Virus record (IMG/VR): IMGVR_UViG_3300025137_000294
Location: 1 to 23,695 of that record
DNA length: 23,695 nt
Strand: one strand, 5' to 3'
From: a virus
The notes under the pieces are model-generated. The model did not search any database and was not told the origin of the DNA. It saw only the letters and a list, made by a program, of their open reading frames with translations. Made by a program: the position numbers and the translations under genes. Below are positions 2,051-23,695 of this stretch, one piece after another (the first letter of the stretch is position 1; each line of letters opens with the position of its first letter).

Positions 2051-2062
2051 TAGGTAAATAGT

Positions 2063-2284
2063 ATGAAAAAAAATTATGCAAAAGATTTATTTTTATTGTT
2101 TGATAACTTTAATATTTCTGAAAAAACAAAAGGAAATAAAAATAGTTTACTAAAAAGAAATTCAGGTTTTTCTAAAATGAATAATGATTCAAAAAGTCAA
2201 CCTATATTTAAAGTAGCACGATATAAAAATACAATTAAAAAGAAAAGAATGGAATTTTTAAATGCAAGAAACAGCACAACATAA
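2063..2284 (+). CDS. Small basic protein of unknown function
   Basis: A 73-residue, Lys/Asn-rich, strongly basic protein starting MKKNYAKDLF, with AGTAGGT upstream as a modest ribosome site. No domain is recognised and there is no signal peptide or membrane segment. It is even more AT-rich than its neighbours. Its last 23 bases overlap the start of the next gene. It fills an otherwise empty slot in the late operon, so it is probably expressed. It could be a virion component, an assembly factor or a nucleic-acid binder. Nothing in the sequence decides between these. Confidence 0.6.
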   Translation: MKKNYAKDLFLLFDNFNISEKTKGNKNSLLKRNSGFSKMNNDSKSQPIFKVARYKNTIKKKRMEFLNARNSTT

Positions 2285-4336: not shown

Positions 4337-4355
4337 ATTAAAGGTAAACATATAA

Positions 4356-8501: not shown

Positions 8502-8700
8502 TTACTTGTGTCCTTTTAAACTGTCTGCTATAAGCATCATTCCAACCACGTAACCATTCTCTATAAGCCATAGAGTTTAAATGATATGGTGACCTTTCAT
8601 TTCTCTTAAAAGCATTGACTCCTTTATTAAACTGTATAATTAAAGGAGCATCGTATTTAGAAAGTCCTCTTTCTTTTCTACTTCTTATCTTTTTTATCAT
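8461..8700 (-). CDS. RMF/CrpP-like small basic protein
   Basis: A 79-residue basic protein with a clean AGGAG site before its ATG. The central part is a run of G27-V-N-A-F, then N34, S37-P38-Y39, then W49-L-R-G-W-N-D-A. This matches the layout of the ribosome modulation factor/CrpP family: Gly-x-x-Ala-x-x-x-Gly or Arg, Pro-Tyr, then Trp-Leu-x-Gly-Trp-x-x-Ala. RMF dimerises 70S ribosomes during stationary phase. Short phage relatives are usually left as hypothetical. The basic N- and C-terminal arms would fit RNA binding. It overlaps mazG by 41 bases and the preceding 82-residue gene by 23 bases, so the three are one expression unit. The family call is by pattern only; ribosome binding is inference. 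Confidence 0.55.
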   Translation of the reverse strand: MIKKIRSRKERGLSKYDAPLIIQFNKGVNAFKRNERSPYHLNSMAYREWLRGWNDAYSRQFKRTQVNETRRRGKEVYAK

Positions 8701-8926
8701 CCTTATTCTCCTCTTGTTGTTGAGGTTTAGTAAAATATTTAATGAGCATCTCTAACTTATCATTATAGTCTGCAATCTTACCAAGCTCTTCTTCTATAGA
8801 AGCATGAATATCGTGATGCTCTCCTATGCCTGTAGGATTTGTAAGTAAAACTTCTACATTTGCTATATGTTTATTAATTAACCCAACATAATAGGTTCTT
8901 GATGCTCCAATTAGTAATTCTCTCAT
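8678..8926 (-). CDS. Conserved marine-phage protein of unknown function (MRELLIGA type)
   Basis: An 82-residue protein preceded by a strong AAGGAG site. It starts MRELLIGASRTYYVGLINKH and has a GIGEH-HDIHASIEEEL segment followed by a charged, Lys/Glu/Asp/Gln-rich tail (about 67-82). This N-terminal pattern recurs in small unannotated proteins of marine podoviruses and cyanophages (recognition from memory, not a search). It is probably helical and cytoplasmic, with no signal peptide. It is the first gene after the longest gap of the early operon (8927-9010) and overlaps the RMF-like gene. Its function is unknown. Confidence 0.7.
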   Translation of the reverse strand: MRELLIGASRTYYVGLINKHIANVEVLLTNPTGIGEHHDIHASIEEELGKIADYNDKLEMLIKYFTKPQQQEENKDDKKDKK

Positions 8927-8950
8927 AAATTTTCTCCTTTTTTAAAATTT

Positions 8951-8991
8951 GTCTTCATATAAAGACCGTCAGAGGGGTGAAACACACCCTC
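8951..8991 (-). other. Two stem-loops between the reductase gene and the 82-residue gene
   Basis: In the 84-base gap after the reductase stop, bases 8972-8979 (GAGGGGTG) pair with 8985-8991 (CACCCTC) with one bulge and a 5-base loop. A second small stem pairs 8951-8955 with 8962-8966 (GTCTT/AAGAC). The first is GC-rich in an AT-rich genome and stands out. On the - strand no clean T-run follows, so this is not a textbook terminator. Partial termination, RNA processing or mRNA 3'-end protection are all possible. Confidence 0.45.
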
Positions 8992-9010
8992 CGAGGGTTC
9001 TAGTACCTGA

Positions 9011-10996: not shown

Positions 10997-11151
10997 TTAT
11001 TTATCTCCTCACTTGTTGTTCTAAAGTTTCTTATATCAGCACCTTCTAAATCGTAGAATGCTTCTCTTACAAATTCTTCTATTTCTATATTTACTTTTCC
11101 ATCGGCAGGTACAGCATACTCTTCTGTATCTATATCCAATGTTATCATCAT
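10993..11151 (-). CDS. Small acidic protein directly upstream of nrdJ
   Basis: An unlisted 52-residue frame reading MMITLDIDTEEYAVP and ending TTSEEINK. It fills the gap between the DUF3310 gene and nrdJ exactly: its ATG follows the upstream TAA by one base, and its TGA overlaps the nrdJ ATG as ATGA. The ribosome site is weak (AAGAG), so it probably relies on coupling. It is acidic, has no signal peptide or membrane segment, and no family is recognised. A second ATG one codon later (11148) is an equally good start. Tight packing on both sides is the main support that it is real. Confidence 0.65.
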   Translation of the reverse strand: MMITLDIDTEEYAVPADGKVNIEIEEFVREAFYDLEGADIRNFRTTSEEINK

Positions 11152-11152
11152 T

Positions 11153-11458
11153 TTAACTCTTATCGTCATTTACAATCTCTATTAATTTAGATAAGTACCA
11201 TTGTGCTTTTTTCAAGTCTTCTACTCCATTTTTATAATCATATCTCCAAAGATACTTTAATATATTACCTTGTAAGTATGCTTCAAATCCTTTACCTGTA
11301 CAAGCTTTTATTGCATCAATACATTCTATACCATATTGATTGTAATGTGGTGGATGATTAACCATGTCATCTACTAATTCTCTACCAACTATTTTTGGTT
11401 TATCTTCAGACGGTAAATCTTTTTCAAAGTCAATCATTTCTTTTATACTAGCAGCCAT
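11153..11458 (-). CDS. DUF3310 (SaV-like) protein
   Basis: A 101-residue protein with the DUF3310 core: H35-P-P-H-Y39, then YGIECIDAI (42-50), then YLQGNILKYLWRY (61-73), then K76-NGVEDLKKAQWYL (76-89). This family is widespread in tailed phages. It is sometimes labelled nucleotide kinase-like, without firm biochemical proof. Its start overlaps the stop of the upstream 103-residue gene as TAATG. The neighbourhood (reductase, nucleases, polymerase) suggests a role in nucleotide or DNA metabolism, which is inference from context. The N-terminal 30 residues are charged and may be a flexible extension. Confidence 0.85.
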   Translation of the reverse strand: MAASIKEMIDFEKDLPSEDKPKIVGRELVDDMVNHPPHYNQYGIECIDAIKACTGKGFEAYLQGNILKYLWRYDYKNGVEDLKKAQWYLSKLIEIVNDDKS

Positions 11459-11769
11459 TATGCATTCCCTTCAGTGTTAAAGTTAAAGTGTATTACGTTA
11501 CCATTTACAACAGGTTTTTCTTCAGGTTCTTTTATAAACTCTTCTAGTTTGTCTGCATAGTCTACATTCTTTTCCATAAACGCTATAGAACTTGCAACGA
11601 GTTGACTTAGATGTGTTAAGTCTCTTTTACTTTCTACAGGCATAGGATTTTCTTTTGATGTAATAATATTTACTTGTAAGCCACCCTGCCAATTATTATC
11701 TTCATCGAGTTCAGGTAAAAGTTCTATGTAGAAAGCAGATGGATATTTAGTTGTAATGTCTATTGTCAT
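11458..11769 (-). CDS. Conserved hypothetical early protein
   Basis: A 103-residue acidic protein starting MTIDITTKYPSAFYIELLPEL, two bases after the endonuclease I stop and overlapping the DUF3310 ATG as TAATG. The first half looks like beta strands (FYIELLP, GGLQVNIIT). The second is helical (DLTHLSQLVASSIAFME) with an acidic stretch EEFIKEPEEKP. No known motif or signal peptide is visible. It lies inside a replication and nuclease gene run, so an accessory role there is likely but not shown. Confidence 0.7.
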   Translation of the reverse strand: MTIDITTKYPSAFYIELLPELDEDNNWQGGLQVNIITSKENPMPVESKRDLTHLSQLVASSIAFMEKNVDYADKLEEFIKEPEEKPVVNGNVIHFNFNTEGNA

Positions 11770-11771
11770 AA

Positions 11772-12224
11772 TTAACTCCCTAGTTTCTTTCCTAAAAATT
11801 TTATAAATTTAGGATAATTGTTTTTTCCTTTTTCTTTTAGCCAATCTTCAGGTATAATTCTAGTATAGTATCTAAACCCATGCTTAATACACCATTGTGC
11901 ATACGTTGACTTTGCATTCTTATATAATTTTCTATTACTATTTTCAAAAACAAATCGTATATCTAAATCAGGATGTTGTTTCTTTACACATAAATGTTTT
12001 CGTCTATCGGCAGTAGTAAACATACCTTTTGTTTCTATAATGATCCCATTATTAAGCACAAAGTCAGGGGTATAGGTGCGATAGGCAAGGTCTTCCCATT
12101 CTATTTTTACTTTTTCATATAGAAAAACAATAGAGTTACTCTTTAAGTATTCAGCAACCTTGTCTTCTAAACCACTCCTATACCCATTCTTACGAGCTGC
12201 ATGTCTAGCACTATATGCTGACAT
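11772..12224 (-). CDS. T7 gp3-like endonuclease I (Holliday-junction resolvase)
   Basis: Start chosen at 12224: this ATG overlaps the upstream stop as TAATG, and the protein (150 residues, T7 gp3 is 149) then aligns with T7 gp3 from its first residues. The longer frame from 12239 adds five residues with no family match. Catalytic residues are present at nearly the same numbers as in T7 (E20, D55, E65, K67): E20 in SGLEDKV, D54 in YTPDF, and E64 and K66 in IIETKG. The following ADRRKHLCVKKQHPDLDIRFVF segment and the C-terminal EDWLKEKG are also gp3-like. The enzyme resolves branched DNA and helps degrade host DNA. It is the last of three nuclease/ssDNA genes in a row. Confidence 0.93.
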   Translation of the reverse strand: MSAYSARHAARKNGYRSGLEDKVAEYLKSNSIVFLYEKVKIEWEDLAYRTYTPDFVLNNGIIIETKGMFTTADRRKHLCVKKQHPDLDIRFVFENSNRKLYKNAKSTYAQWCIKHGFRYYTRIIPEDWLKEKGKNNYPKFIKFLGKKLGS

Positions 12225-12973
12225 TATACATCTGCCCATATTTTCTTTGCTTCTTTTTTAAACTTAGCACTCCAAGTCCATGAATCAAAGTTTGGATAAA
12301 CTAAAGAAGCTAACTCGTGTTTATCTTTACTAATAGATAGAAATTTCTGTATACTAAAAGCCACACTTTTAAGTTGTTTTTTATACAAAGATAAATTATC
12401 TAATGTAAAAGTCTTATGATCCTTTGGTGTAGCAAAAAACAAATCTACACTATTGTTTGGATATGCCATAGAGTAAAATGCCATCTGTCTCTTTTGTGCT
12501 TCTGTAGGTCTTGATGGCATTCGTGTTGATGTCTTTAAGTCAACTATTTTATCTTTAAATCTAAAATCAATATATCCCATAACAGGTATAGGCATGTCAT
12601 CAAACTGAACCTCAACTCTTTCTTGATAGTCTTCTAAGTTTTTATACTTAAAATTCTCATCAATAATTTTACCAAAGTTAGGTAGTAGGTTTCTTTCTTT
12701 CTCTACTTTAACATCCCCTAAATCAATATTAGATTCTGTACACATAGTCATAAACTGCATTTCTAATGCATCGAAATCAAACTTACCTGTCTTGTATTTA
12801 TCAGCTAGTGCCGCTTCTTGAACAATACCTCTGACTGCTCCTGCTCCACTACCTGATTTAATACCAAACAGATACCTAGCTACCCACATAGGCATGTCGC
12901 TTATGTAGGTATTCATATTGCTAGGTGATAAATATTTAATATCATGCACCTCAAAAGGATTATTACTTTTCAT
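12224..12973 (-). CDS. PD-(D/E)XK (Cas4/RecB-type) exonuclease
   Basis: A 249-residue protein with the RecB/Cas4 nuclease core: helix RGIVQEAA (48-55) with E53, D136 in GYIDF, D145-L-K147 (IVDLKTS) as the metal and catalytic pair, then Q163-MAFY167, the QxxxY motif. It probably acts as a 5' or dsDNA exonuclease in recombination and host DNA breakdown, the job done by gp6 in T7. No Walker helicase motif and no cysteine cluster is seen, so it is a nuclease domain alone without an Fe-S site. It overlaps the upstream SSB candidate by 11 bases and the endonuclease I gene as TAATG. Confidence 0.85.
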   Translation of the reverse strand: MKSNNPFEVHDIKYLSPSNMNTYISDMPMWVARYLFGIKSGSGAGAVRGIVQEAALADKYKTGKFDFDALEMQFMTMCTESNIDLGDVKVEKERNLLPNFGKIIDENFKYKNLEDYQERVEVQFDDMPIPVMGYIDFRFKDKIVDLKTSTRMPSRPTEAQKRQMAFYSMAYPNNSVDLFFATPKDHKTFTLDNLSLYKKQLKSVAFSIQKFLSISKDKHELASLVYPNFDSWTWSAKFKKEAKKIWADV

Positions 12974-13886
12974 TTAAATCCACATCTACAAAGTCATCAA
13001 TAGTACTTAAGTCATCTTCAGATACTTCACTTTGTTTTTCTTGCACTGCATTTTCCCATGCTTTGTATACACCATCGTTATAGTTTTTAATCCAATCAAG
13101 AAAACTAGAAAATGTTTTGTGGTCTTCTTCTCCTATTCCTATAGTGCTTGATAAATCTACAAGTGCTATTGGTGTATAGAAACTAGAACCATTTTGCATT
13201 GGGTTTTCTTTACTAGACTTTAACATTATATAATGATTTAAAGGTAGCTTTTCTTTCTTAGCATAGATGTTAAATTGATCACCTATTGTTTTATAGGCAT
13301 CTCTATTATCTATCTCCCATATAAAAGGAACTTCACCTAGCTCTACATCATTACCTTTATCATCAGTAGGATTGTCTAACTTAATTGTTCCAAAAACAGC
13401 ACGTACACGCTTAGTCTGTTTAATAAGGTCTTGCATACCAACAGGAAGTGCTTTAAAGTCTTTGATATAACCTGCAGGTTTACCACAGTTAAAATGCCCT
13501 TTGTTATCTTTTAAATCTATATTTAGATTATCAGACATAATAGTTTTATGAAACGTACCCTTAGGTTCACCTTCTTTTACATTACTAAATGACTCATATC
13601 TTTTTAACATATAGCGTTGCATAAAAGGTCTTACCTTAGCAGTCTTTGCATAGTAGTATGTAGATGTATCATCGTCTACTAATTCTAATCTATATACACC
13701 ACCTTCTACTACCTCTACTTTCTTTAACTTACCACCAACCTTCTCTTCACCCATAATAGGTGAATGCCATATCCTTAATCTATTTAAGTTATTAGCCGTC
13801 TTTGTGCCTACAGTAGCACCTGCTATGCCCATAGCCTTTGCCATAACTGCATAATTGTCTGTATTTATTGTTACTAAATCGCTCAT
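12963..13886 (-). CDS. Candidate single-stranded DNA-binding protein
   Basis: A 307-residue protein starting at an ATG with a strong AAGGAG site. Its location between DNA polymerase and exonuclease is where T7-like phages keep their ssDNA-binding protein. The body looks beta-rich with many Lys and aromatic residues (GGVYRLELVDD, STYYYAKTAK). The C-terminus (287-307) is strongly acidic, ending DDFVDVDLNEK, like the acidic tails through which phage SSBs contact polymerase and helicase. No direct OB-fold signature can be claimed by eye, so this is inference from position and tail. A sigma-70-like promoter (13915-13943) lies just upstream, which would give it strong early expression as needed for an SSB. 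Confidence 0.55.
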   Translation of the reverse strand: MSDLVTINTDNYAVMAKAMGIAGATVGTKTANNLNRLRIWHSPIMGEEKVGGKLKKVEVVEGGVYRLELVDDDTSTYYYAKTAKVRPFMQRYMLKRYESFSNVKEGEPKGTFHKTIMSDNLNIDLKDNKGHFNCGKPAGYIKDFKALPVGMQDLIKQTKRVRAVFGTIKLDNPTDDKGNDVELGEVPFIWEIDNRDAYKTIGDQFNIYAKKEKLPLNHYIMLKSSKENPMQNGSSFYTPIALVDLSSTIGIGEEDHKTFSSFLDWIKNYNDGVYKAWENAVQEKQSEVSEDDLSTIDDFVDVDLNEK

Positions 13887-13914
13887 AGTTTCTCCTTTTT
13901 CTATTTGTCTAGAC

Positions 13915-13943
13915 GTTATATCACATTACGTCTTGCATGTCAA
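13915..13943 (-). promoter_or_regulatory. Sigma-70-like promoter upstream of the SSB candidate
   Basis: On the - strand TTGACA (13943-13938) is followed after exactly 17 bases by TATAAC (13920-13915). The -35 box lies in the last codons of polA and the -10 in the gap, with the ribosome site and ATG of the 307-residue gene about 25-30 bases downstream. The boxes and spacing are identical to those of the promoter at 20199-20227. Confidence 0.75.
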
Positions 13944-15939
13944 GCCAATTATTACCTATTTTTGCTTCTAGTAATAATGGAACATTTAAGTCTATATTGA
14001 AATGATTATTAATAGTATTTGTCATATCATTATTAGTACTTTCTATTATACTTTTTACTATGTCTATTTCATTAGGGTGTATATCAATTACTATAGAATC
14101 ATGTACTGTATTTACAACACAGGATTCATACTCTTCTAGTCTCTTATCTACATCCATTAGTATAAGAGGTACTATATCTGCAGTAGCAAATGATTGCACA
14201 GGATAATTTTTAATCTGTGTAAAGTATGTAACCCCACCCTTAATTCTTCTTTCTACATCAGGAAATGAAAACTCTCTACCTGATGGTGTCTTTATCTTAA
14301 AATGCGTTACAGCCTCCTTAGCCAATCTGGAATGCCAAGATGCGATTCCTTTGTACTTTTTTGTAAACTGCTCGTAGTACGCGGCTTCTGCCCTCGACCT
14401 TCCAAACCCGGTTGCTCCGAAGAGTGGTGCGAATGTGTGTCCTTTTGCTTCTTGCCTAGTAATCTTCTGACCTGCTTCTGAAATAACTTTCGCAGTGTAA
14501 CTATGTACGTCAAAACCATTTTCAATCTCCTTCATTGCTGTTTCATCTTGTGCTAAAAATGCAGCAGTTCTAAACTCTAACTGTGCAAAGTCAGCTTCAA
14601 GTATCATACCACCTTCCCATCTAGATATAAATACTTTCTTTACAGGAAATGTACCACCTCTAGGCATATTCTGCATATTAGGTTCTGCTCCACTAAACCT
14701 ACCTGTAGATGTCCTGTGCTGTAATAATCTTACATGCAACTTACCATCGTCCTTTAAATATGTATTTATACCTTCTACAAAAGAAGATAGGTATGTATCT
14801 AATGCAGACAGTCTTTGTAAGTCTGCTAAAAAGTTATATGCAGCCATAGAATTATTTCTCTTAGCTACACTTTGTAGTATGCCTAGCATGTTTTTATTTA
14901 CACTAAACCCATTTGCACTAACCCATTTAGCTGTAGGTGCATTAAACTTTAGACCTGCTATAGATTGGGTTGGTTTAAACAAATAACCTGAACCATCACA
15001 CTCAGAACACTTAGTATCATTCTTATAAGGTGTACCATCTTTCTTTATCTTCTTAATAAAACCTGCTCCATAACATACTGAGCATTTTACAGCGATAGTC
15101 TTATAAACTATATTGCTGTTCTCTTTTATAACCTTAGTAAAGTCTGCCTTACCCATATAAGGTGTAAAGTTATTAAGCCATGTTGTTTTATCTTTAGGCT
15201 TTCTACTATATATAACCCACGACATCTGTTCAGGGCTGTTAAGATTTATCTGTGTATCTCCCATAAGTTTCTTGACTTGAGAAGAAAGTCTCTTCTCGAC
15301 ATCAGCTTTTTCTTTTTCAAACTCTGATTGTACTTGTTTAAGAGATTCTGTATCCACATTAAACCCACGCTTATATATATTAGCAAGAGTAAGGGCAACA
15401 CGATTGGTATGATTAACAGTAGCAACAAGACCACTATGCTCATCATCATTAAGTTTTTTATATAATGCATCTGATAACTCCTTTGTAGCATTTAAATCTG
15501 CTGACAGATACTCTGATAACTCTTCTTTTGGTACGTCATCAACACCTAAACCTTTCTTAAAATATTCTTTAAGTGTATCTTTCTTCTGTGTGTGTAGGCT
15601 ATATCTTTCGGCACAGGCTTTAAGAGATAGAGGTTTCTTCTGACCACGTAGCATTATATATTCTACCAGCATAGTATCAAATACATCACCGTCATATTTA
15701 AAACCACATTCCCAAAGCCACATTAAGTCATAAGATATATTGTGTCCGACTAGGATAGTAGTGCTGTCAAGCAACTGCTGCACACCATCAAAGCCTGTCT
15801 CATGGTGAAACAGATATTCCTTACCGTCTTCTGTAAGACAGCCTACCATAATTAATTGGTTGTCTTTTTCAAATGGGTCAAGATGCATTTTATCATCTCG
15901 CTTTGTTACTGTATTCTCTACATCAAATATTAATTTCAT
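13921..15939 (-). CDS. polA: Family A DNA polymerase with 3'-5' exonuclease and DnaJ-type zinc insert
   Basis: A 672-residue replicative polymerase. The exonuclease domain has D6-V-E8 (Exo I), GHN67-ISYD71 (Exo II) and Y144-LSAD148 (Exo III). Residues 286-317 hold two CxxCxGxG units (C286/C289 and C311/C314), like half of a DnaJ central zinc domain. The same insert is the hallmark of phage HMO-2011. The polymerase domain has motif A D450 (EADFAQLEF), the motif B helix R495-QEAK499-GHTF503-APLF507-G, and motif C VH613D614S. The residue equal to E. coli Phe762 is F503. The ATG at 15939 has a GGAGAAG site and a promoter-like element just upstream, and overlaps the HNH gene by 17 bases. A GC-rich patch of about 120-140 bases covers motif B (see findings). 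Confidence 0.96.
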   Translation of the reverse strand: MKLIFDVENTVTKRDDKMHLDPFEKDNQLIMVGCLTEDGKEYLFHHETGFDGVQQLLDSTTILVGHNISYDLMWLWECGFKYDGDVFDTMLVEYIMLRGQKKPLSLKACAERYSLHTQKKDTLKEYFKKGLGVDDVPKEELSEYLSADLNATKELSDALYKKLNDDEHSGLVATVNHTNRVALTLANIYKRGFNVDTESLKQVQSEFEKEKADVEKRLSSQVKKLMGDTQINLNSPEQMSWVIYSRKPKDKTTWLNNFTPYMGKADFTKVIKENSNIVYKTIAVKCSVCYGAGFIKKIKKDGTPYKNDTKCSECDGSGYLFKPTQSIAGLKFNAPTAKWVSANGFSVNKNMLGILQSVAKRNNSMAAYNFLADLQRLSALDTYLSSFVEGINTYLKDDGKLHVRLLQHRTSTGRFSGAEPNMQNMPRGGTFPVKKVFISRWEGGMILEADFAQLEFRTAAFLAQDETAMKEIENGFDVHSYTAKVISEAGQKITRQEAKGHTFAPLFGATGFGRSRAEAAYYEQFTKKYKGIASWHSRLAKEAVTHFKIKTPSGREFSFPDVERRIKGGVTYFTQIKNYPVQSFATADIVPLILMDVDKRLEEYESCVVNTVHDSIVIDIHPNEIDIVKSIIESTNNDMTNTINNHFNIDLNVPLLLEAKIGNNWLDMQDVM
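14974..15084 (-). other. DnaJ-like zinc-finger insert in DNA polymerase
   Basis: Codons 286-322 of polA encode C286-S-V-C-Y-G-A-G and C311-S-E-C-D-G-S-G separated by a 17-residue, lysine-rich linker. The four cysteines can bind one zinc. The segment lies between the exonuclease domain and polymerase motif A, near where the thumb of family A enzymes would be. Confidence 0.88.
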
Positions 15940-16363
15940 TTATCTTCTCCATATGTCTCTCTAAATATATAATAGCTTTTTTTAAAATGTCAACACTATC
16001 TGAAAATCCACCTAATGCTCTGTTGCAACTATGGCAAAGCCAACCTCTAAAAGTACTAGTGTCGTGACAGTGATCTAATACCCATGCACCATTTCTCTGA
16101 CCACCCTTACCTGCTACCTCTGTTTCTCCTCTGTTACATACAGGGCAGTGATAATCTTTATCAGGCATTCCATGTTTTTCTCGTAATCTGTTTCTAACTT
16201 TTGTTAGTTCATTATTACATTTTTTACATTCAGGTCTAAGAAAGTTTGCACCTGATGAAACACTAAATGCTGTTAGTGGTAATCTTTGATTACACTTACT
16301 ACATGTTTTTGTTTCACCATCTATGTGTAATAGTTCAATGTCAAACAATTCTTTTTGGGTCAT
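15923..16363 (-). CDS. Endonuclease VII-like HNH nuclease
   Basis: A 146-residue protein of the recombination endonuclease VII (T4 gp49-like) HNH family. An N-terminal zinc ribbon-like pair C21/C24 and C46/C49 precedes the nuclease core. That core is C73/C76, then D97-H98-C-H100-D-x4-FRG-x-L-C110-x-x-C113-N114, the metal site and treble-clef zinc of the family. It could resolve branched DNA during replication or packaging, or be a free-standing homing-type nuclease, since such genes are often found beside polymerase genes. It is stitched into the operon by an ATGA overlap with helicase and a 17-base overlap with polA, which speaks for a settled resident. The phage also carries an unrelated resolvase (endonuclease I). 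Confidence 0.9.
   Translation of the reverse strand: MTQKELFDIELLHIDGETKTCSKCNQRLPLTAFSVSSGANFLRPECKKCNNELTKVRNRLREKHGMPDKDYHCPVCNRGETEVAGKGGQRNGAWVLDHCHDTSTFRGWLCHSCNRALGGFSDSVDILKKAIIYLERHMEKINEINI
15966..15993 (-). promoter_or_regulatory. Sigma-70-like promoter upstream of polA
   Basis: On the - strand TTGACA (15993-15988) is followed after 16 bases, mostly an A-tract, by TATATA (15971-15966). It lies inside the 3' end of the HNH gene, about 27 bases before the polA ATG, leaving room for the GGAGAAG ribosome site at about 15944-15950. Confidence 0.6.
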
Positions 16364-17586
16364 GCTTCGTATCTTCCAATCTGATAATTAAGTTGACAGT
16401 TTACCATACCATGCCATCCTGTTAACTTATTCTTGACAATATTTAAATGTCTTTCTATATCCTCGCCTTCACCATCATCTTGCTTTGGAGGGTTCTTGGC
16501 TATTAGTATCATAAGGTCGGCTTCTGCTGCCTTACCTGTCCTACTGCCTTCCATCATACTCTGATTAAGTAGCACCTTACCTTCTGCATCTGCAGATAGC
16601 TGTGACATATAAAACATAGCACACTTGTGTTGCTTGGCAATCTGTCTAGCATGTATAGCATTTGCTTTCAGTGCTTCATCAGGTCTTGCAAAGCCACCTG
16701 TACGTGCAAACTTATCACCCATATCAAGTAGTACTATGTCAGGTTTATATGACTTACAGACAGACTCTACCCAATTCATATCTCTACCTGTAGCATCTTT
16801 TATCTTAACTCTATTCTTGATAGGCTCATATAAGTCACGAGCTTTTGAGGGGTTATTCTTTATCTCTTTCATTGTCATGCCTGTAGCTGCAGTAAGATAT
16901 CTAGCACCAACTCTGTGACTACCTTCTTCATTACACAACACAATACAATCAGCACCTTGATGTGCAAACCCATCAGGTGATGCAATCATACTAGCATGAA
17001 AAGATGTCTTACCTGTATTAGGTCTAGCACCTACCTCAATCAAGTGTCCTTCATTAACTCCACTAATCTGTCTTGTCAGTGCAGGTATATTAAAATGCCA
17101 CCTTGCTTCAAGTGCATTCTTAGCTAACAATGTCTCAATGTCCATGTCATCCCACTCTACATTTAAGTCAGGTGTAAAGTCATCATTGTGTTGCTCTAGT
17201 AGTAATCTAAGAGGTTCTAAACTTGTCTGCGAACCATTTACATAATCAAATCCTAAGTTGGCAATATCTTCTCCAACAACCTGCTGAAACAACTTAGACA
17301 ATACTTCTTGTGCAATGTCACTACCAAGAGGTTTCTCATTCTTAATCTGTCTAAACAAATGAGAGTATGCTTGTTTCTGTGCTGTCGTAAGTGCAGGATT
17401 GTCCGACATAAATAATGCTTCTATTTCATCAGGCAGTACAGACCTTTCGTATCTGTCCATTGCCTTATCAATAGCTTGTTTTATTTTCCTTGTGTCTTTA
17501 CTAAACAATCTGTCAGGGCATCTAGCACCACGATTCTCTTCGTAGAATGCTTTGTCCATAAGACTGCGTACTAATGAAAGTTCCAT
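16360..17586 (-). CDS. DnaB-like replicative helicase (T7 gp4 C-terminal type)
   Basis: A 408-residue RecA-fold hexameric helicase. Walker A is G186-ARPNTGKT194-S, the catalytic glutamate region is CNEEG (218-222), Walker B is DIVLLD (283-288), motif H3 is FYMSQLSAD (325-333) with Q329, and the arginine-finger region is MEGSRTGKAAEAD (345-357). It is expected to unwind DNA 5'-3' at the fork with the primase and polymerase encoded beside it. The N-terminal 160 residues are helical and lack primase motifs, so the gp4 functions are split over two genes here. The ATG has an AAAGGAGA site two bases after the primase stop. Confidence 0.93.
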   Translation of the reverse strand: MELSLVRSLMDKAFYEENRGARCPDRLFSKDTRKIKQAIDKAMDRYERSVLPDEIEALFMSDNPALTTAQKQAYSHLFRQIKNEKPLGSDIAQEVLSKLFQQVVGEDIANLGFDYVNGSQTSLEPLRLLLEQHNDDFTPDLNVEWDDMDIETLLAKNALEARWHFNIPALTRQISGVNEGHLIEVGARPNTGKTSFHASMIASPDGFAHQGADCIVLCNEEGSHRVGARYLTAATGMTMKEIKNNPSKARDLYEPIKNRVKIKDATGRDMNWVESVCKSYKPDIVLLDMGDKFARTGGFARPDEALKANAIHARQIAKQHKCAMFYMSQLSADAEGKVLLNQSMMEGSRTGKAAEADLMILIAKNPPKQDDGEGEDIERHLNIVKNKLTGWHGMVNCQLNYQIGRYEA

Positions 17587-17588
17587 GT

Positions 17589-18359
17589 CTATATCTCCTT
17601 TGGGGTTAGGTTATTTAAATTATTAAAGTCTTTACTATTGTTGTATTTTAAATCATCGTTAAGTTTAAGAACACGTACATCTCTTACATGACCACGTAGT
17701 TCTTTAGCAAAAAAAAGTGTCTTGGGTAATGCGTCAGGGTCTAATGCTATGATGGCTGTTGAAAATTGTGATATGTGCTTCTTGTGTATTTCAGATAGAG
17801 ATGTACCCAACACAGCTACCCCAACTAATACATCGCTACCTACAACTGCAGCACTTACACAATCTTCAACAACTACTGCCACCTTACCACATCCGAAAGA
17901 AAAAGGCAACCCACTATTACCATATTTCTTCCATTTGGGTAATCTTTTTCCAAGTGACCTGCCAATCGCATCTACAATCTTATTGTCTTTGTACACAGGA
18001 AAGACAACTCTATGCTCTTTAACATCATAATGCAAATCTAAGTTAGATGCATTAAGCGACCACTTGGTACACCATGAAACTAAGTCAGGTGTATTCTTTC
18101 TATCTACTATATACTCAGGTAATACAAATGTATTATCTTTAGTAGCTTCCACAGACCTATTAAATGTAGTCTGTATATCATCTATAGATAAATGTACACG
18201 TTTCTTACCACTCACATTACAGGATGCTTTATAACAATTCCACAGCAATGAACCCATATTGTTAGTTATAGTAAATGTTTTATACCCTTTACATAAAGGA
18301 CAGTCCACTCTACGTGTATCACCTATATCTATATTTAAACTATATATGTAATCTAACAC
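17589..18359 (-). CDS. Phage DNA primase (zinc-binding plus Toprim)
   Basis: A 256-residue protein matching the primase half of T7 gp4. An N-terminal zinc finger C20-x2-C23...C42-x4-C47 is followed by a Toprim core with VVVEDCVSA (162-170; E165 the catalytic acid) and IALDPDAL (204-211; D207 and D209 for metal). The start is a GTG at 18359 with AGGGGA nine bases ahead. No ATG fits the zinc finger as well. It lies just after the integrase and its own promoter-like element. It should make RNA primers for lagging-strand synthesis and work with the separate helicase that follows by two bases. Confidence 0.9.
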   Translation of the reverse strand: MLDYIYSLNIDIGDTRRVDCPLCKGYKTFTITNNMGSLLWNCYKASCNVSGKKRVHLSIDDIQTTFNRSVEATKDNTFVLPEYIVDRKNTPDLVSWCTKWSLNASNLDLHYDVKEHRVVFPVYKDNKIVDAIGRSLGKRLPKWKKYGNSGLPFSFGCGKVAVVVEDCVSAAVVGSDVLVGVAVLGTSLSEIHKKHISQFSTAIIALDPDALPKTLFFAKELRGHVRDVRVLKLNDDLKYNNSKDFNNLNNLTPKEI

Positions 18360-18380
18360 TTTATGTGTTCCCCTATGTAA

Positions 18381-18399
18381 TGATAATATGTATTTATCA
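18381..18399. promoter_or_regulatory. Inverted repeat overlapping the primase promoter, next to the integrase gene
   Basis: TGATAA (18381-18386) and TTATCA (18394-18399) are perfect 6-base arms around a 7-base spacer. The repeat covers the -10 box of the promoter candidate, so it could be a repressor operator. The 7-base spacer between inverted arms beside int also fits a tyrosine-recombinase core site. Six-base arms in AT-rich DNA can arise by chance. No tRNA-like sequence flanks it. Confidence 0.35.
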
Positions 18400-18419
18400 C
18401 AGTTTTAAACATCTGTCAA
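18391..18419 (-). promoter_or_regulatory. Sigma-70-like promoter upstream of primase
   Basis: On the - strand TTGACA (18419-18414), in the last codons of the integrase, is followed after 17 bases by TAAATA (18396-18391). The -10 is imperfect (3 of 6), but the sequence GGCTTGACA and the TGTGATA before or within the -10 match the promoter at 13915. It would separate primase/helicase expression from the integrase. Confidence 0.5.
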
Positions 18420-19310
18420 GCCTTTTCTTTTCCTTAATGCTAAATTAGCACTTGTGTATGTGTTTTTCATGTACGGTTTTACACTCTGTGGGTTAGCATG
18501 TCCTGTAACTGACATAATATTACCCATAGATACACCAGCATCTACCATCTCTACTGTTCCTGTACGTCTTAGATCAGATAAACGTAGCTCATCAGGTAGG
18601 TTGGCATCTCTCATTACCTTTCTAGCCACCTTAGGCAGCCTATAGAGAGAATAAGGCTTATATATACCACCGACAGGCTTAACTTGAGGTGCTACATACT
18701 TCTGAAAGCCAAAATCTTCTTTTTGTTGTACAAGCATCTCACCTAAACTGTCACCAATGGGTAAAAATACCTCTGCCCTACGTTTAGATTGTTCTATATG
18801 CATTCTTTGATCTTCTAAATCTAAGTTAGACCATTGCAATAAACGCATATCACCTAACCTTTGACACCAATCGTATGCCATGTGTGCTATAAGACCTATG
18901 CTACGTGTTTTAAAATCAGAGTAAGCTACATCTAGAAAGTCTGTTACATTCTCCTTTGTCCACACTGTTTTTCTCCTATCAGGTATTCTTTTCTTTATGT
19001 TACTAAAAGGATTCTGCCTTATTTTCTCCATGTTTATGCCATAGTTATAGATAACTCTAGACACAGACATTACATGGTTTGCGAGATGCACACCACGATT
19101 ACACCAATCGTTGTATGCAAGTTTAGCCATAAGAGTAGTTATATTATTTATTGTAAAGTCACCTAAGTTTTTGTCTGTGTCAGGTAACCTTGTGTCCAAG
19201 AGTACGTTCAGAAAGTATTGATATTGTTGTTTAGTTTCGTCACGTAAACTCTTGAACTCAAAGCATAAATAATACTCTTTAACTAAATTTTTAAGAGTAA
19301 GATATCCCAT
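18405..19310 (-). CDS. int: Tyrosine recombinase (integrase)
   Basis: A 301-residue integrase. The N-terminal half (about 1-105) looks like the SAM-like core-binding domain. Catalytic residues of the C-terminal domain are R151 (CQRLGDM), K176 (QSKRR), R248 (DLRRTG), H271 (TGH) and nucleophile Y280, nine residues after the His as in lambda Int. The usual first His, three residues before R248, is Ser245 (codon TCT), an uncommon change at a catalytic position. Length and spacing look normal, so the enzyme is probably active. Its ATG overlaps the DUF932 stop as TAATG, so both share the promoter at 20199-20227. It implies site-specific integration, or that an ancestor could integrate. No attP with tRNA identity was seen. 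Confidence 0.93.
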   Translation of the reverse strand: MGYLTLKNLVKEYYLCFEFKSLRDETKQQYQYFLNVLLDTRLPDTDKNLGDFTINNITTLMAKLAYNDWCNRGVHLANHVMSVSRVIYNYGINMEKIRQNPFSNIKKRIPDRRKTVWTKENVTDFLDVAYSDFKTRSIGLIAHMAYDWCQRLGDMRLLQWSNLDLEDQRMHIEQSKRRAEVFLPIGDSLGEMLVQQKEDFGFQKYVAPQVKPVGGIYKPYSLYRLPKVARKVMRDANLPDELRLSDLRRTGTVEMVDAGVSMGNIMSVTGHANPQSVKPYMKNTYTSANLALRKRKGLTDV

Positions 19311-20167
19311 TAGGCTGCAGCTAACTTTTTAAATTCAGGTGTAGCAACCCACTTAGTTACCTCGTGTTCTCTAGCCCACATTGATTGAGACTGTGTATCA
19401 TTACCTGTGTTACGTAGGTTAAATCCATTCCTCTCATCTGCATAAGATGCGTAGTTAGTAAAAGCACTATATAATGCAAACACATTCCTGCCACGTTTAC
19501 TGACCTCTTGTTGTACTAGTGGTAGCATCTTCTTAGCCTTTTGATCTGACTTAGTTATAGAAGACAGCACTTCATTCCAACCTTTATTTGAATAGGTAGG
19601 CAACTCTACTCTAGCCCAAGTCTTTAATTTATCTGACTGCTCTTGAAAGTCTAAGCTACTCTGATTAAGTTCATTAATAAATCTAGACATGCAAAAATTA
19701 GATGTGTTCTTACGTTTAACCTTATCATAGTCTCCTGTAATCATACCATTGGTACAGAAGAAATCTATAGCACCAAAGAATACTTGATTAGAACAAGACC
19801 CATCTACACCGTGCAGGGCTATAATTCTTTGCCCTACCTCTGTGGTATGTTTATCTGTTTCAATCTTAGTGCTAACATTAGGCATAACAATATCCATCAT
19901 TGCCCATGCATTGTTCCTAGCACTTGACCATCTTACAGTAGAGTCTACCATAGCATCAGGTATGTTGTCTACCATAACATTCTGAACACCATCAAAGAAC
20001 TTCTTGTGACTAGCACAGTTAAACCCCTTTCCTACAACACCAAGATAATCTCCTGTCTCATTGTTGATAACATATTTCTTCTCATCAAACTTTGTAGTCT
20101 CAAAGTCTACAGAGAAATCTAAATTTTCAGGTACTTCATGTACCGTTGGTAAAACATCATATGGCAT
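19310..20167 (-). CDS. DUF932 phage/plasmid-like protein
   Basis: A 285-residue protein when started at the ATG at 20167 (MPYDVLPTVHEV), which has a perfect AGGAGA site six bases upstream. A longer frame from a TTG at 20227 exists, but that TTG is the -35 box of a promoter, so the long form is rejected. The sequence fits the DUF932 family (phage/plasmid-like protein, TIGR03299): V-G-K-G-F-N near residue 46, the middle HGVDGSCSNQVFFGAIDFFCTNGMI, and a helical C-terminal half. Function is not established for the family, which is common in phages and plasmids near replication genes. Here it heads the integrase-primase-helicase run, with TAATG coupling to the integrase. Confidence 0.85.
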   Translation of the reverse strand: MPYDVLPTVHEVPENLDFSVDFETTKFDEKKYVINNETGDYLGVVGKGFNCASHKKFFDGVQNVMVDNIPDAMVDSTVRWSSARNNAWAMMDIVMPNVSTKIETDKHTTEVGQRIIALHGVDGSCSNQVFFGAIDFFCTNGMITGDYDKVKRKNTSNFCMSRFINELNQSSLDFQEQSDKLKTWARVELPTYSNKGWNEVLSSITKSDQKAKKMLPLVQQEVSKRGRNVFALYSAFTNYASYADERNGFNLRNTGNDTQSQSMWAREHEVTKWVATPEFKKLAAA

Positions 20168-20173
20168 AATATA

Positions 20174-20179
20174 TCTCCT
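20174..20179 (-). promoter_or_regulatory. Ribosome binding site fixing the DUF932 start
   Basis: AGGAGA on the - strand, six bases before the ATG at 20167. It decides against the TTG start 60 bases upstream. Confidence 0.85.
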
Positions 20180-20198
20180 ATTGGTTAAGTGATGTTGT

Positions 20199-20227
20199 GT
20201 TATATAATAAATCAAAGCATTTGTCAA
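20199..20227 (-). promoter_or_regulatory. Strong sigma-70-like promoter for the DUF932-integrase run
   Basis: On the - strand TTGACA (20227-20222), exactly 17 bases, then TATAAC (20204-20199). It lies in the 68-base gap between the 102-residue gene and DUF932. The leader to the ATG would be about 25 bases and contains AGGAGA. It is the clearest promoter in the window. Confidence 0.8.
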
Positions 20228-20235
20228 GCATTATT

Positions 20236-20544
20236 TTAGTCATATTTATATGCTCTTTGCCATGCTTTATCATCAGAGCTTAATACATAGTCTGAATAGA
20301 ACATAGGTGAATCATCTTGTTGATCCTTCTGTGGTGAAAATTGTAAAGTACTATGCAGCTCGTGAATCAAATCCTCTATTAATCTAATATGAGTTAATTC
20401 AATATCCCTTGCTTCATCTATGTGACGAAGCATACGTTGTAATCTATTGTGATAATTAAGAAACACTCTTCTTGTACCACCTGCTACGAGAATATCTTCA
20501 CTATTCATGTCCACTTTAAATGGACTTTCTTTTTTCTTTGTCAT
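20236..20544 (-). CDS. Small hypothetical early protein
   Basis: A 102-residue, highly charged protein starting MTKKKESPFKVDMNSEDI, with AGGAG at a good distance from the ATG. The centre (about 28-70) is His/Arg/Leu-rich and helical (LQRMLRHIDEARDIELTHIRLIEDLIHELH), probably a coiled coil or hairpin. The C-terminus is acidic and aromatic (MFYSDYVLSSDD). No family is recognised. It is the last gene before the DUF932 promoter and would be read from the promoter at 20866-20894. Confidence 0.65.
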   Translation of the reverse strand: MTKKKESPFKVDMNSEDILVAGGTRRVFLNYHNRLQRMLRHIDEARDIELTHIRLIEDLIHELHSTLQFSPQKDQQDDSPMFYSDYVLSSDDKAWQRAYKYD

Positions 20545-20557
20545 TTTGTTTCTCCTA

Positions 20558-20698
20558 TTATGTTAATACAATTAAATGTTTTTTAAGCCACTCTGCATTG
20601 GCATTTGTTTTTTTAATTACGTGTTGCCTTACAGCTTTTTTTAATTCTTTGTGATATTTTCTACTACCACTTGTATTTTTTTTGTGTTTATTTCCCAT
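20558..20698 (-). CDS. Tiny basic protein (46 residues)
   Basis: An unlisted frame MGNKHKKNTSGSRKYHKEL ending EWLKKHLIVLT. The ATG overlaps the end of the upstream 46-residue gene by 11 bases and the stop lies 13 bases before the next ATG, so it fills an otherwise empty 143-base slot. It has a lysine- and histidine-rich first half and an amphipathic helix in the second. It could bind nucleic acid or be a small host-takeover peptide. No family is recognised. Support is packing and codon style, not homology. Confidence 0.55.
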   Translation of the reverse strand: MGNKHKKNTSGSRKYHKELKKAVRQHVIKKTNANAEWLKKHLIVLT

Positions 20699-20828
20699 TG
20701 TCTTTATCCTTTTGTTGTTTTTGTTTAAGTTCATTTCTTATTTTTTCTAGTCGTGTTTTATGTTTAAGACTTCTCTCGTTCTTTTTTCTTATCCACTCTT
20801 TTAAATAGTGGTAGTCATTACTATTCAT
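20688..20828 (-). CDS. Tiny basic coiled-coil-like protein (46 residues)
   Basis: Start chosen at the ATG at 20828 (MNSNDYHYLKEW), which has AAGAGGT just ahead and overlaps the upstream stop by only eight bases. A frame starting at 20897 would overlap that gene by 77 bases and carry the -10 region of a promoter. The 46 residues are mostly Lys, Arg, Glu and Gln, ending KQKQQKDKDNGK, a single charged helix. No family is recognised. It is the first gene after the promoter candidate at 20866-20894. Confidence 0.6.
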   Translation of the reverse strand: MNSNDYHYLKEWIRKKNERSLKHKTRLEKIRNELKQKQQKDKDNGK

Positions 20829-21324
20829 AATGTACCTCTTTAAACCATGTTGGTCTATCTGTATACTTATACCTTGCAAATCTTGCTTTGTCAACATTAT
20901 AAAATGCTCGGTATGCTTTTATTGGATAAAACTCATCTGTTTTGAGTTCATCTAGCCCACTAAAACATTGTGGGTGTTGTGTTATCTGCCCTTCAGGTAT
21001 TAAAGGTACACCATTTAGCAGAGAGTTGTAGTGTTTCTTTGCTCCATGTATCCTACCATATCTACGTGTGTACTCTTCTAACATATGGTGGTACAATCTA
21101 AAAGCAAACTTATAGTTCTTGTTACTTTCCATAGCCCATAATGTACATGGGTGTTTCTGATGCACAGGCTTGTACAAGTCACAGGTTTCTGCATAGTCAG
21201 GTGCAATATGCCACAGTGCAGTACATAACATCTGTGCTTCTTCTAATGGCATCTTGACTACGTGCTGGTCACATAAAGACTTTGCTATTAAATATGGATT
21301 GTCTTCTATAATAAATCTATTCAT
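20821..21324 (-). CDS. Conserved phage protein with CDxHVVKM motif
   Basis: A 167-residue protein starting MNRFIIEDNPYLIAKSLCDQHVVKM. The N-terminal Leu/Ile-acidic stretch followed by C18-D-x-H-V-V-K-M25 and then E28/E29-x-x-Q-x-L-C is a pattern I recall from small conserved proteins of marine and T4-like phages. Some of these are labelled pyrimidine-dimer glycosylase-like, without clear proof. The C-terminal RPTWFKEV recalls the Arg-Pro-x-Trp end of T4 endonuclease V (DenV), but the N-terminal catalytic pattern of DenV is absent. His and Cys are frequent (H37, C47, H55, H58, C60). DNA repair is therefore only a guess. A promoter candidate lies within its last third. Confidence 0.6.
   Translation of the reverse strand: MNRFIIEDNPYLIAKSLCDQHVVKMPLEEAQMLCTALWHIAPDYAETCDLYKPVHQKHPCTLWAMESNKNYKFAFRLYHHMLEEYTRRYGRIHGAKKHYNSLLNGVPLIPEGQITQHPQCFSGLDELKTDEFYPIKAYRAFYNVDKARFARYKYTDRPTWFKEVHYE
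20866..20894 (-). promoter_or_regulatory. Sigma-70-like promoter inside the CDxHVVKM gene
   Basis: On the - strand TTGACA (20894-20889), 17 bases, then TATAAG (20871-20866). It is coding sequence for Val-Asp-Lys...Tyr-Lys, so the match may be accidental. Even so, spacing and boxes agree with the other early-strand promoters, and it lies about 38 bases before the next ATG (20828). Confidence 0.5.
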
Positions 21325-21538
21325 TGTTTTCTTCTTTCCAATAGTTAGGGTTAAAATATTTATCTAGTACTCTTAGATTTTTATAATCACATTTTTCTAA
21401 ATCTTCTATTGATATATCTTCAGGGTGTATCTCCTTGTATATATAATTTTCTTCATACCATTTTGTTTCGTTGTCATAGTGATTTGTAAACAAGCTATCA
21501 AATGCTTCTCTTGCTTTTTGTTTTGTTATTTTAGTCAT
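21317..21538 (-). CDS. Small acidic hypothetical protein
   Basis: A 73-residue protein when started at the ATG at 21538 (MTKITKQKAREAF), which overlaps the upstream hydrolase stop by eight bases in the style of this operon. A start at 21571 adds 11 residues but has a poorly spaced ribosome site. It is Glu/Asp/Asn/Tyr-rich with several Tyr/Trp near NYIYKEIHPEDISIEDLEKC and ending NYWKEENNE. No domain is recognised. It lies between the lysis-type hydrolase and the CDxHVVKM gene. Confidence 0.6.
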   Translation of the reverse strand: MTKITKQKAREAFDSLFTNHYDNETKWYEENYIYKEIHPEDISIEDLEKCDYKNLRVLDKYFNPNYWKEENNE

Positions 21539-21962
21539 ATTTAATATCCCATCTGTAAAATATGTGGTCATCTATTCTTGCTATGTATGTCTTGGTACTA
21601 GCCCAAGATGGTAACACATAGTGAGCATGGTAGTGTGTAGCACCTTCTACAAAGTCATCAAGGTTGCCATAGTACACACCATGTGCAACTGTGATTGCTG
21701 TATCCCATGCGTGTCCTTCTTTAGGCTTGTCACTCTTGCCATCACAGTACCAACTAAACTGACACCTATTCTTAACAGGGTAGTCTGTCTTCCAACTGTA
21801 GGTAGGTCCTTGTTTAACTACTTCACATACTGTGTTGGGGTATCGTTCATCTTTAACTCTGTTCATCACGACTTGTGCTACTGCTATCTGTCCAATCAAA
21901 GATTGGTTTTTAGCTTCGTGATATACGTTAAGTGCTAGACATACTAGTGCTTCAGCTATCAT
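21531..21962 (-). CDS. SleB-type cell-wall hydrolase (endolysin candidate)
   Basis: A 143-residue single-domain hydrolase of the SleB family (Hydrolase_2), which cuts peptidoglycan glycan strands as a lytic transglycosylase or amidase-like enzyme. Family signatures are in order: catalytic E16 in YHEAKNQ, VAQVVMNRV (28-36), C67-QFSW-YCDG (67-75), GATHYHA (107-113) and HIFYR (133-137). It begins directly with the catalytic domain: there is no signal peptide or membrane anchor, so release would need a holin, which I do not see in the window. The ATG has GGGAGA at a good distance. It sits in the early-strand gene run, not with the late structural genes. Confidence 0.88.
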   Translation of the reverse strand: MIAEALVCLALNVYHEAKNQSLIGQIAVAQVVMNRVKDERYPNTVCEVVKQGPTYSWKTDYPVKNRCQFSWYCDGKSDKPKEGHAWDTAITVAHGVYYGNLDDFVEGATHYHAHYVLPSWASTKTYIARIDDHIFYRWDIKYD

Positions 21963-21964
21963 AC

Positions 21965-22093
21965 TTATCTCCCATTGTTTATGTATCTAAGTTGTTGCTT
22001 CTGTTTACGTTTTCTTTCTAATCTATACTGTTGTTTAATCCACTTGTTCTTTGGTTTCTTTTTGCTTGGTATTTTCTCTAACTGAGTCAGCAT
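21965..22093 (-). CDS. Tiny Lys/Arg-rich protein (42 residues)
   Basis: An unlisted frame with an excellent AAGGAGAGG site before its ATG at 22093, starting MLTQLEKIPSKKKPKNKW and ending QLRYINNGR. Nearly half the residues are Lys, Arg or Gln. It overlaps the upstream 54-residue gene by 59 bases in another frame and ends two bases before the hydrolase ATG, whose ribosome site lies in its stop region. It may bind nucleic acid or serve mainly to couple translation of the hydrolase. No family is recognised. Confidence 0.55.
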   Translation of the reverse strand: MLTQLEKIPSKKKPKNKWIKQQYRLERKRKQKQQLRYINNGR

Positions 22094-22199
22094 AATTCCT
22101 CTCCTTCTTTCTATTATAAGTTTTCTTTGACGGAACTACTTGTGTCCTACGTCTAGATTCTAGCATAGCTTTGGCTATAGGATTTATCTTTCTAATCAT
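22035..22199 (-). CDS. Small Arg/Lys-rich protein (54 residues)
   Basis: An unlisted frame starting MIRKINPIAKAMLESRR and ending KQKETKEQVD. Its ATG overlaps the methyltransferase stop as ATGA, the hallmark coupling of this genome. The segment PSKKTYNRKK resembles short basic proteins common in marine phages (Val-x-Pro-x-Lys-Lys-x-Tyr-x-Arg-Lys-Lys), known to me only as hypothetical. Very basic, probably nucleic-acid binding. The second half of the gene also encodes the start of the 42-residue protein in another frame. Confidence 0.6.
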   Translation of the reverse strand: MIRKINPIAKAMLESRRRTQVVPSKKTYNRKKERNYADSVRENTKQKETKEQVD

Positions 22200-23251
22200 T
22201 CTATACCTTTCATTATATGTGCTATGACATCAACTGTCCACCCATTACCTAACATCTTATATCGTTGGCTATTGGATACATGATTAGTGTAATTGTCAGG
22301 TACAGTCTGCAGTCTCTCGCATTCTACAGGTGTTAGCTTTCTCCATTGCATACCCTCTACAAGCACATTGTCTTTGGTAAACGTAGTTAAACAATTAGTC
22401 TTACCTTTGTAATGATACTCAAGCTGTCTACTAAGAGGTAGCTCAAGTTGGCTGTCTTTACGTGTACCATGCTCATCTAGTCTACGATTAACAATTCTAC
22501 CTATAGCTACCTTAGGCTCTCTATGCCCACCCTGCATCGTGGTAAGTGTGGGAGCTTTCCCACTAGGTGAGTAGATACGTTTAATGCTATCAAAGCCTTT
22601 GATATTGTCAGCTTCACCTACTTGTACCATAGTACGTTGCTTACGTTGTATACTGTTCCACCACACAGCACCATTGTATCGTGCAGTAATGCAATGTGAC
22701 TTACCATTCTGATTAGTCATAGCTTCATTAGCAATACCATCTTCTAGTACATCTTGTAAGATTATACCCTTGTCATCTGTAGGTATATCAAAAGGTATGT
22801 TAGTCCAATACAATCTCTTTCTATTTTGTGCAGAGAATAAGCTACTGTTTATAGTGACAGGCTTAACACCTAAATACCTTGTAATAATATCCTGTGACTC
22901 CTGTTTCATAGGTACGTTCTCCATAAGAAAGTACTTAGGTTTTAACTCATCTTTTAATCTAACAAACTCAAAGAATAACTTACTACGTGGATCATCAAAG
23001 TCTAACTGTTTACCTGCCACACTAAACCCCTGACAAGGTGAGCCACCCATCAGTAGGTCTATGTTATCAGAAGATGGTCTACCTATCTGTGTCACATCTC
23101 CTACATGTATAGTGCGTGGGTAGTTAGCCTTTGCTACCTTGATAGCATACTTGTCTATCTCAGATGCAAAGTAGTGACCATACTTTACACCTGCTCTGTT
23201 GAGGGCTATTTGTCCACAGGACATACCATCAAATAAACTTAATACATTCAT
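22196..23251 (-). CDS. C5-cytosine DNA methyltransferase
   Basis: A 351-residue C5-cytosine methyltransferase. Motif I is LSLFDGMSCGQ (4-14, SAM site). Motif IV is GGSPCQGFS with catalytic C73, motif VI is MENV (110-113) and motif VIII is QNRKRLYW (142-149). A target-recognition region spans about 165-300, and the motif IX-X segments are LTPVECERLQ and MLGNGWTVDVI. The protein is complete. The ATG has a GAGGAG site. No restriction enzyme is adjacent, so it is an orphan, probably protecting phage DNA from host restriction. Target sequence cannot be read from the protein. Base composition is more GC-rich than most neighbours (one 60-base row near 22501 is about 53% GC against about one third elsewhere), which suggests separate acquisition. 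Confidence 0.93.
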   Translation of the reverse strand: MNVLSLFDGMSCGQIALNRAGVKYGHYFASEIDKYAIKVAKANYPRTIHVGDVTQIGRPSSDNIDLLMGGSPCQGFSVAGKQLDFDDPRSKLFFEFVRLKDELKPKYFLMENVPMKQESQDIITRYLGVKPVTINSSLFSAQNRKRLYWTNIPFDIPTDDKGIILQDVLEDGIANEAMTNQNGKSHCITARYNGAVWWNSIQRKQRTMVQVGEADNIKGFDSIKRIYSPSGKAPTLTTMQGGHREPKVAIGRIVNRRLDEHGTRKDSQLELPLSRQLEYHYKGKTNCLTTFTKDNVLVEGMQWRKLTPVECERLQTVPDNYTNHVSNSQRYKMLGNGWTVDVIAHIMKGIE

Positions 23252-23253
23252 AA

Positions 23254-23695
23254 CTACTTCTCCTCTATGTACACTCGTAAGTGTGTTGATTGATCTATGT
23301 TCTGCCCATATGCCGTAGCACCTGTGCCTTTGTATTCTTCCTTGATGTGTTGACCTCTAACACGCATCTTATACTTTTTAAAGTTAAGATATTTCTTTAC
23401 GTTGTCTACAAACTCCTGTCCTTCACAATCGTTAGGTATCTCACTGAAGTCATACTTAGGTACTGCCTTGTCAGGTGTCAGTTCTTTTACCCTTTCTTGT
23501 AGGTATACATTTCTTGCCCTTATTCGTGACACCTCTTGCTCTAGTTTCATTATCTGATTAGTCTGTGATACAGACACTTCTAATTGTTTGTCGTGAGTTT
23601 TTAACCTGTTATTCTCCTCTGTTAAATACTCTACTTCCTTAGTTAACTCAGCTACTGCACCCTCTTGAGTATCTCTTCTTACTTCCTCTCCAAGT
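23254..23695 (-). CDS. Coiled-coil protein, N-terminus beyond the window (partial)
   Basis: A GTG at 23577 would give 107 residues. The same frame stays open without a stop for another 39 codons to the window edge and contains no ATG, and its sequence continues the same heptad-like pattern (AELTKEVEYLTEENNRL, then KLEQEVSRIRARNVYLQERV). The gene therefore most likely starts outside, with at least 146 residues visible. The N-terminal part is a long coiled coil. The C-terminal about 70 residues (from PKYDFSEIPND) form a mixed domain ending THLRVYIEEK. No catalytic motif is seen. Its stop is two bases before the methyltransferase ATG. Unknown function. Confidence 0.7.
   Translation of the reverse strand, partial: LGEEVRRDTQEGAVAELTKEVEYLTEENNRLKTHDKQLEVSVSQTNQIMKLEQEVSRIRARNVYLQERVKELTPDKAVPKYDFSEIPNDCEGQEFVDNVKKYLNFKKYKMRVRGQHIKEEYKGTGATAYGQNIDQSTHLRVYIEEK

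Follow-up and report, generated by a model that had tools for sequence, protein, structure and literature searches.

Strong consensus promoters are usual in phages, and the early promoters of E. coli-type phages, e.g. A1-A3 of T7, are near-consensus sites read by host RNA polymerase carrying sigma70. HMO-2011-type podoviruses of the sea have been described through their gene order, a DnaJ-like zinc-finger insertion in polA and an integrase-primase-helicase-polA module, in a text that does not mention promoters or RNA polymerase (PMC9038755). In the four alphaproteobacteria studied, Rhodobacter, Caulobacter, Novosphingobium and Zymomonas, over 60% of sigma70 promoters lack T at position -7, and CarD has been proposed to compensate (PMC8407463). 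Such promoters combine a TTG-type -35 box with a commonest spacing of 17, and on average the four bases are nearly equally frequent at -7 (PMC8407463).

The stretch of DNA analysed here, referred to as the window, is a virus record of 23,695 nucleotides (23.7 kb) in which structural genes occupy the + strand from 95 to 8138 and a replication module the - strand from 8139 to 23577, the two blocks converging tail to tail. Its polA is 61% identical to that of HMO-2011 (Puniceispirillum phage) and joins PF00476 and PF00684 in one protein, the PF00684 match being below its curated cut-off, with the DnaJ-type zinc finger (CXXCXGXG) inserted inside. The early gene order is that of HMO-2011 (integrase-primase-helicase-polA). 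Judged by this insertion and module order, the window is a fragment of an HMO-2011-type marine podovirus. Its - strand carries a DUF932 gene (19310-20167; Pfam PF06067, E 1.6e-8), then integrase, primase, helicase, an endonuclease VII-like gene and polA. Downstream lies an open reading frame of 307 aa (12963-13886, - strand), which has an orthologue in the same position in HMO-2011 and CRP phages and gave no match in Pfam and PHROG searches; PD-(D/E)XK nuclease, endonuclease I-like, DUF3310, ribonucleotide reductase and MazG-like genes follow. Near the convergence point, a 79-aa open reading frame (8461-8700, - strand) weakly resembles ribosome modulation factor (PF04957, E 0.016, below cut-off), and a terminator-like hairpin, CCCTAGAGATAAATACTCTAGGG (8364-8386, + strand), lies antisense within the MazG-like gene directly past the end of the + strand genes. 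In three isolates the ribonucleotide reductase gene is followed by some 360-370 nt free of annotated genes (L004:15316-15679, L005:18452-18823, L086:17584-17955).

A sequence-only reading of the window had listed five near-consensus host-type promoters on the - strand. All five TTGACA boxes are present, at 20894, 20227, 18419, 15993 and 13943, and are followed by TATAAG, TATAAC, TAAATA, TATATA and TATAAC at spacers of 17, 17, 17, 16 and 17, respectively (at 15993, TATATT at spacer 18 is an alternative). The two unpaired TTGACA boxes on this strand are likewise where they had been placed, at 16344 and 15770, and GCTTGACA is common to three of the five sites. The proximity to gene starts was also borne out: 26-37 nt separate the end of the -10 box from the next start codon at all five sites, counting at 20894 from an internal ATG (20828) that was chosen by the analyst, while only 4.1% of early-strand positions fall 20-45 nt before a start. 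The elements have the sigma70-type layout of a TTGACA-like -35, a TATAAT-like -10 and 16-18 bp between them, and depart from the E. coli consensus in the last -10 base. The label "near-consensus" is thus accurate for the -35 boxes and inaccurate for that last base, as T is absent from -7 in all five at the spacers given first.

The -7 base also shapes the statistics of the motif. TTGACA by itself shows no enrichment (7 found; dinucleotide shuffles give 7.9 and synonymous-codon shuffles 5.5). The count that had been proposed as a check, TTGACA-N15-19-TANNNT, shows no enrichment over shuffled sequence either (2 versus 1.1-1.3), because the sites end their -10 box in C, G or A. A generic sigma70 consensus scan of the window gives no excess (68 versus 83) for the same reason. 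TTGACA-N15-19-TATA occurs 4 times against 0.37 expected from dinucleotide and 0.61 from synonymous-codon shuffles, an approximately seven- to eleven-fold excess (P 0.001 or less). A matrix built from the promoters of relatives ranks 20227 and 13943 above every other site on both strands (0.03 expected each); sequence by itself does not set apart 20894 (0.30 expected), 15993 (6 expected) or 18419 (outside the top 25). On the + strand, TTGACA-N17-TATATC at 16433, antisense to the helicase gene, scores like 20894 (approximately 0.3 expected by chance).

The 13943 site, P13943, lies at the 3' end of polA. Its -35 box (13938-13943, - strand) falls within the codons Trp-Leu-Asp, and its extended -10, TGA-TATAAC (13915-13923, - strand), begins with the polA stop codon, so that TATAAC itself is non-coding. 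Comparison with 80 relatives fetched by polA, a check suggested with the sequence-only reading, returned GCTTGACA-N14-TGA-TATAAC in 80/80, with the -10 past the stop codon; TTGACA-N17-TATAAC is likewise invariant, the -35 box included. All 51 unique sequences are identical at every base of TTGACA and TGATATAAC, and neighbouring non-coding columns vary. No Leu or Asp codon of polA is chosen more strictly than those under the -35 box: among non-redundant genes Leu is CTT in 70/71, ranking first of 40 conserved Leu columns, and Asp is GAC in 68/71, first of 18 Asp columns. Among the IMG/VR matches listed, whose make-up rather than total was used, 63 of 123 TTGACA-N14-TGnTATAAC sites are at an HMO-2011-type polA end, versus 1/143 for the TATAAT form and 0/120 for the reversed control.

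The element also follows the downstream gene. Most of 11 isolates have it upstream of the orthologue of the 307-aa gene, at 25-35 nt from the ATG, and it is kept there even away from polA in HTVC033P (TTGACA-N17-TATACA, wholly intergenic), CRP-738 (TTGATT-N17-TATAAT, overlapping the stop codon) and CRP-212 (TTGATT-N17-TATAAC). Since the matrix was trained partly on this site of some isolates, the independent cases are HMO-2011, HTVC033P, CRP-738 and CRP-212. The spacer is 16 in CRP-2, CRP-603 and CRP-207, and the match at the equivalent place is poor in CRP-3 and CRP-235. A conserved sequence at a gene junction might instead serve translation, recombination or RNA processing. This is very improbable here, as the two blocks recur before the DUF932, primase and coat genes with the same 16-17 nt spacing and unrelated spacer sequence. 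P13943 is, by its conservation, firmly supported as a strongly conserved predicted promoter.

The second such site, P20227, precedes the DUF932 gene and is intergenic in the window (-35 TTGACA, 20222-20227; -10 TATAAC, 20199-20204; - strand; spacer 17). The upstream regions of DUF932 in 32 of 39 unique relatives are promoter-like, scoring at least 12 bits compared with 2.8% of control windows, a count that is not fully independent, several sequences of this lineage being in the matrix training set; an alignment of the region shows the same conservation. In these 32 relatives the spacer is 16-17, variable in sequence and fixed in length, and HMO-2011 has TTGACT-N17-TATAAA at the equivalent place. 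A conserved ACARYATCASTTAAC lies just downstream of the -10 (20184-20198, - strand). A DUF932 start at the TTG at 20227 was rejected in favour of the true start at 20167. CACTTAAC, a possible shared downstream operator, is correctly placed in the window only at the DUF932 site. P20227 is likewise firm, by conservation, as a strongly conserved putative promoter.

Before primase, TTGACA (18414-18419, - strand) lies in the last integrase codons and is followed by the extended -10 TGA-TAAATA (18391-18399, - strand), in which -7 is A or G in relatives and never T. The pattern TTGACn-N17-TGn-TAWWWR, written after inspecting these regions, matches upstream of primase in 35/44 unique regions compared with 2% of control windows. 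In the close group of the window the -10 lies past the integrase stop codon; in distant relatives the element is largely within integrase codons, and it is kept in a relative where an HNH gene replaces integrase (L232). Conservation in this weaker form gives moderate support to 18419 as a likely primase promoter. In relatives, GCACTTAACTGCC or a palindrome, GCACTTATAAGTGC, comes after the primase promoters and may serve as an operator or in initiation; together with ACARYATCASTTAAC of the DUF932 site, these downstream sequences were noted from the window, L213, L215 and L004:6249.

The two remaining sites are inside genes. At 15993, TTGACA (15988-15993, - strand) and TATATA (15966-15971, or TATATT at 15964-15969) fall within the endonuclease VII-like gene and would form a possible polA promoter. 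Of 44 unique homologous stretches, 29 carry TTGAC[A/T] and 26 of these also a -10-like box, with two reading frames involved, and loci that lack the endonuclease VII-like gene mostly lack the element. Relatives that differ in the genes downstream also have the TTGACA/TATATA tail on this gene (15923-16363), as might be expected of a mobile gene bringing its own outward promoter. At 20894, TTGACA (20889-20894, - strand) and TATAAG (20866-20871, - strand) are inside a pyrimidine-dimer glycosylase-like gene; the Asp codon is GAC in 51/51, yet the -10 codons drift among relatives. In two relatives (L130 and L135) the homologue is TTGACA-N17-TATAAC directly before DUF932. The assignment is ambiguous at both sites, coding constraint being an alternative cause, with 15993 a possible promoter and 20894 a weak candidate.

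Coding constraint could also be proposed for the whole set, the hexamers arising from conserved protein motifs (polA Leu-Asp, integrase Leu-Thr, glycosylase Val-Asp) beside AT-rich flanks. The lack of enrichment of TTGACA alone fits this, as do the positions of 20894, 15993 and partly 18419 in coding sequence and the drifting -10 codons of 20894. At P13943 it is contradicted by an invariant -10 past the stop codon and by the constrained -35 codons, and at P20227 by an intergenic position with a variable spacer of fixed length; for these two sites it is refuted, and as an account of the set it is quite unlikely. The claim of internal host-type promoters on the early strand stands for 13943 and 20227 through deep conservation and moderately for 18419, and is not secure for 15993 and 20894.

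The least explained part of the finding is the -7 base, where all five window sites resemble the alphaproteobacterial promoters that lack T. C occupies this position in 51/51 unique polA-end sequences and in 32/32 unique DUF932 sequences, those scoring as promoters, a fixation that exceeds the near-equal base usage of alphaproteobacteria. The base differs by promoter, being C at the polA-end, DUF932 and coat promoters and G or A at the primase promoter; of four promoters close to where the late strand begins, three have T. In comparison with alphaproteobacterial promoters (PMC8407463), the phage base is fixed promoter by promoter instead of being spread over four bases, and the phage -35 box matches TTGACA exactly. 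Two candidate marine alphaproteobacterial host families have CarD-domain genes, in 16/21 genomes of one and 20/20 of the other. One tentative and rather doubtful idea is that the -7 base encodes timing, and that host CarD or a phage factor would read it and change promoter opening during infection.

The promoter type is not confined to the early module, as complete relatives carry it on the late strand. HMO-2011, CRP-345 and CRP-1 have it ahead of their coat gene and HTVC033P ahead of its terminase small subunit; in HMO-2011 and CRP-2 it also lies upstream of the gene that opens the late strand. Across 14 related records TTGACA-N16-18-TATAAY has 25 matches and its reversed pattern 3. The isolates among the relatives infect bacteria of SAR116, Roseobacter and SAR11, all of them alphaproteobacteria. 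In putative host genomes the near-consensus motif is rare and not above its reversed control, and it was therefore rejected as a host-genome consensus; a set of 25 bacterial genomes gave 8 matches to the TATAAC form, with the polA-end sequence itself present in two of these genomes. A pattern scan of a genome collection matched mostly metagenome-assembled genome (MAG) bins with implausible hosts. HMO-2011-type contigs occur in MAGs labelled Flavobacteriales, Neomarinimicrobiota and Euryarchaeota (L267, L268, L269 and L274), and one contig is in two bins; these are therefore probably mis-binned phage.

The claim that a phage polymerase is not needed agrees with searches of the relatives. The T7-type RNA polymerase family was found in 0/14 related records, a set that does not include the 23.7 kb window record, with a positive T7 control; sigma region 2 or 4 was found in 0/13; and three Pfam models detected neither in 11 complete isolates. 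A divergent phage polymerase or sigma factor beyond recognition by these three models is possible. The two blocks might then be read by a phage-encoded sigma factor, an activator or an unrecognised polymerase instead of the unmodified host holoenzyme, which would suit both a motif far commoner in phages than in candidate host genomes and a -7 fixed as C where alphaproteobacterial promoters have near-equal bases. This is unlikely, given the empty searches of the 11 isolates and the sigma70 signature of TTGACA, a 16-17 spacer, TATAA and TGn; phages, moreover, usually have strong consensus promoters, as noted above.

The reading preferred here, and held with high confidence, is that the host sigma70 holoenzyme would read HMO-2011-type phages from a few fixed promoters. 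It is based on sequence conservation, codon constraint, geometry and the finding that complete relatives encode no recognisable RNA polymerase or sigma factor of their own. In the phage of the window, host sigma70 RNA polymerase would transcribe the early strand from a small number of internal promoters at fixed places: P20227, strong, ahead of DUF932; P18419, weaker and of the extended -10 kind, ahead of primase; and P13943, again strong, within the 3' end of polA, which would drive the genes for the 307-aa protein, nuclease, ribonucleotide reductase and MazG-like protein. Each start would give a short leader of approximately 20-30 nt to the start codon. Because the -10 boxes lack -7T, like most alphaproteobacterial sigma70 promoters, formation of the open complex may require the extended TGn element and host CarD. 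Transcription itself, leader length, CarD dependence and an alphaproteobacterial host for this phage are what we infer from these data. Relative to T7 A1-A3, there would be no takeover by a phage RNA polymerase, the -10 ends in C rather than T, and the same promoter type serves late genes.

Phage promoters for host RNA polymerase are ordinary in kind, and as far as the literature was searched those of the HMO-2011-type group have not been described, nor was a description of the transcription strategy of this widespread marine group found. A sigma70 scan that requires T at -7 overlooks these promoters. The fixed, codon-embedded promoter set provides exact predicted start sites for isolates that are already cultured, and makes it possible to ask, in a natural setting, why the promoters of alphaproteobacteria do without -7T and whether CarD is put to use by phages.
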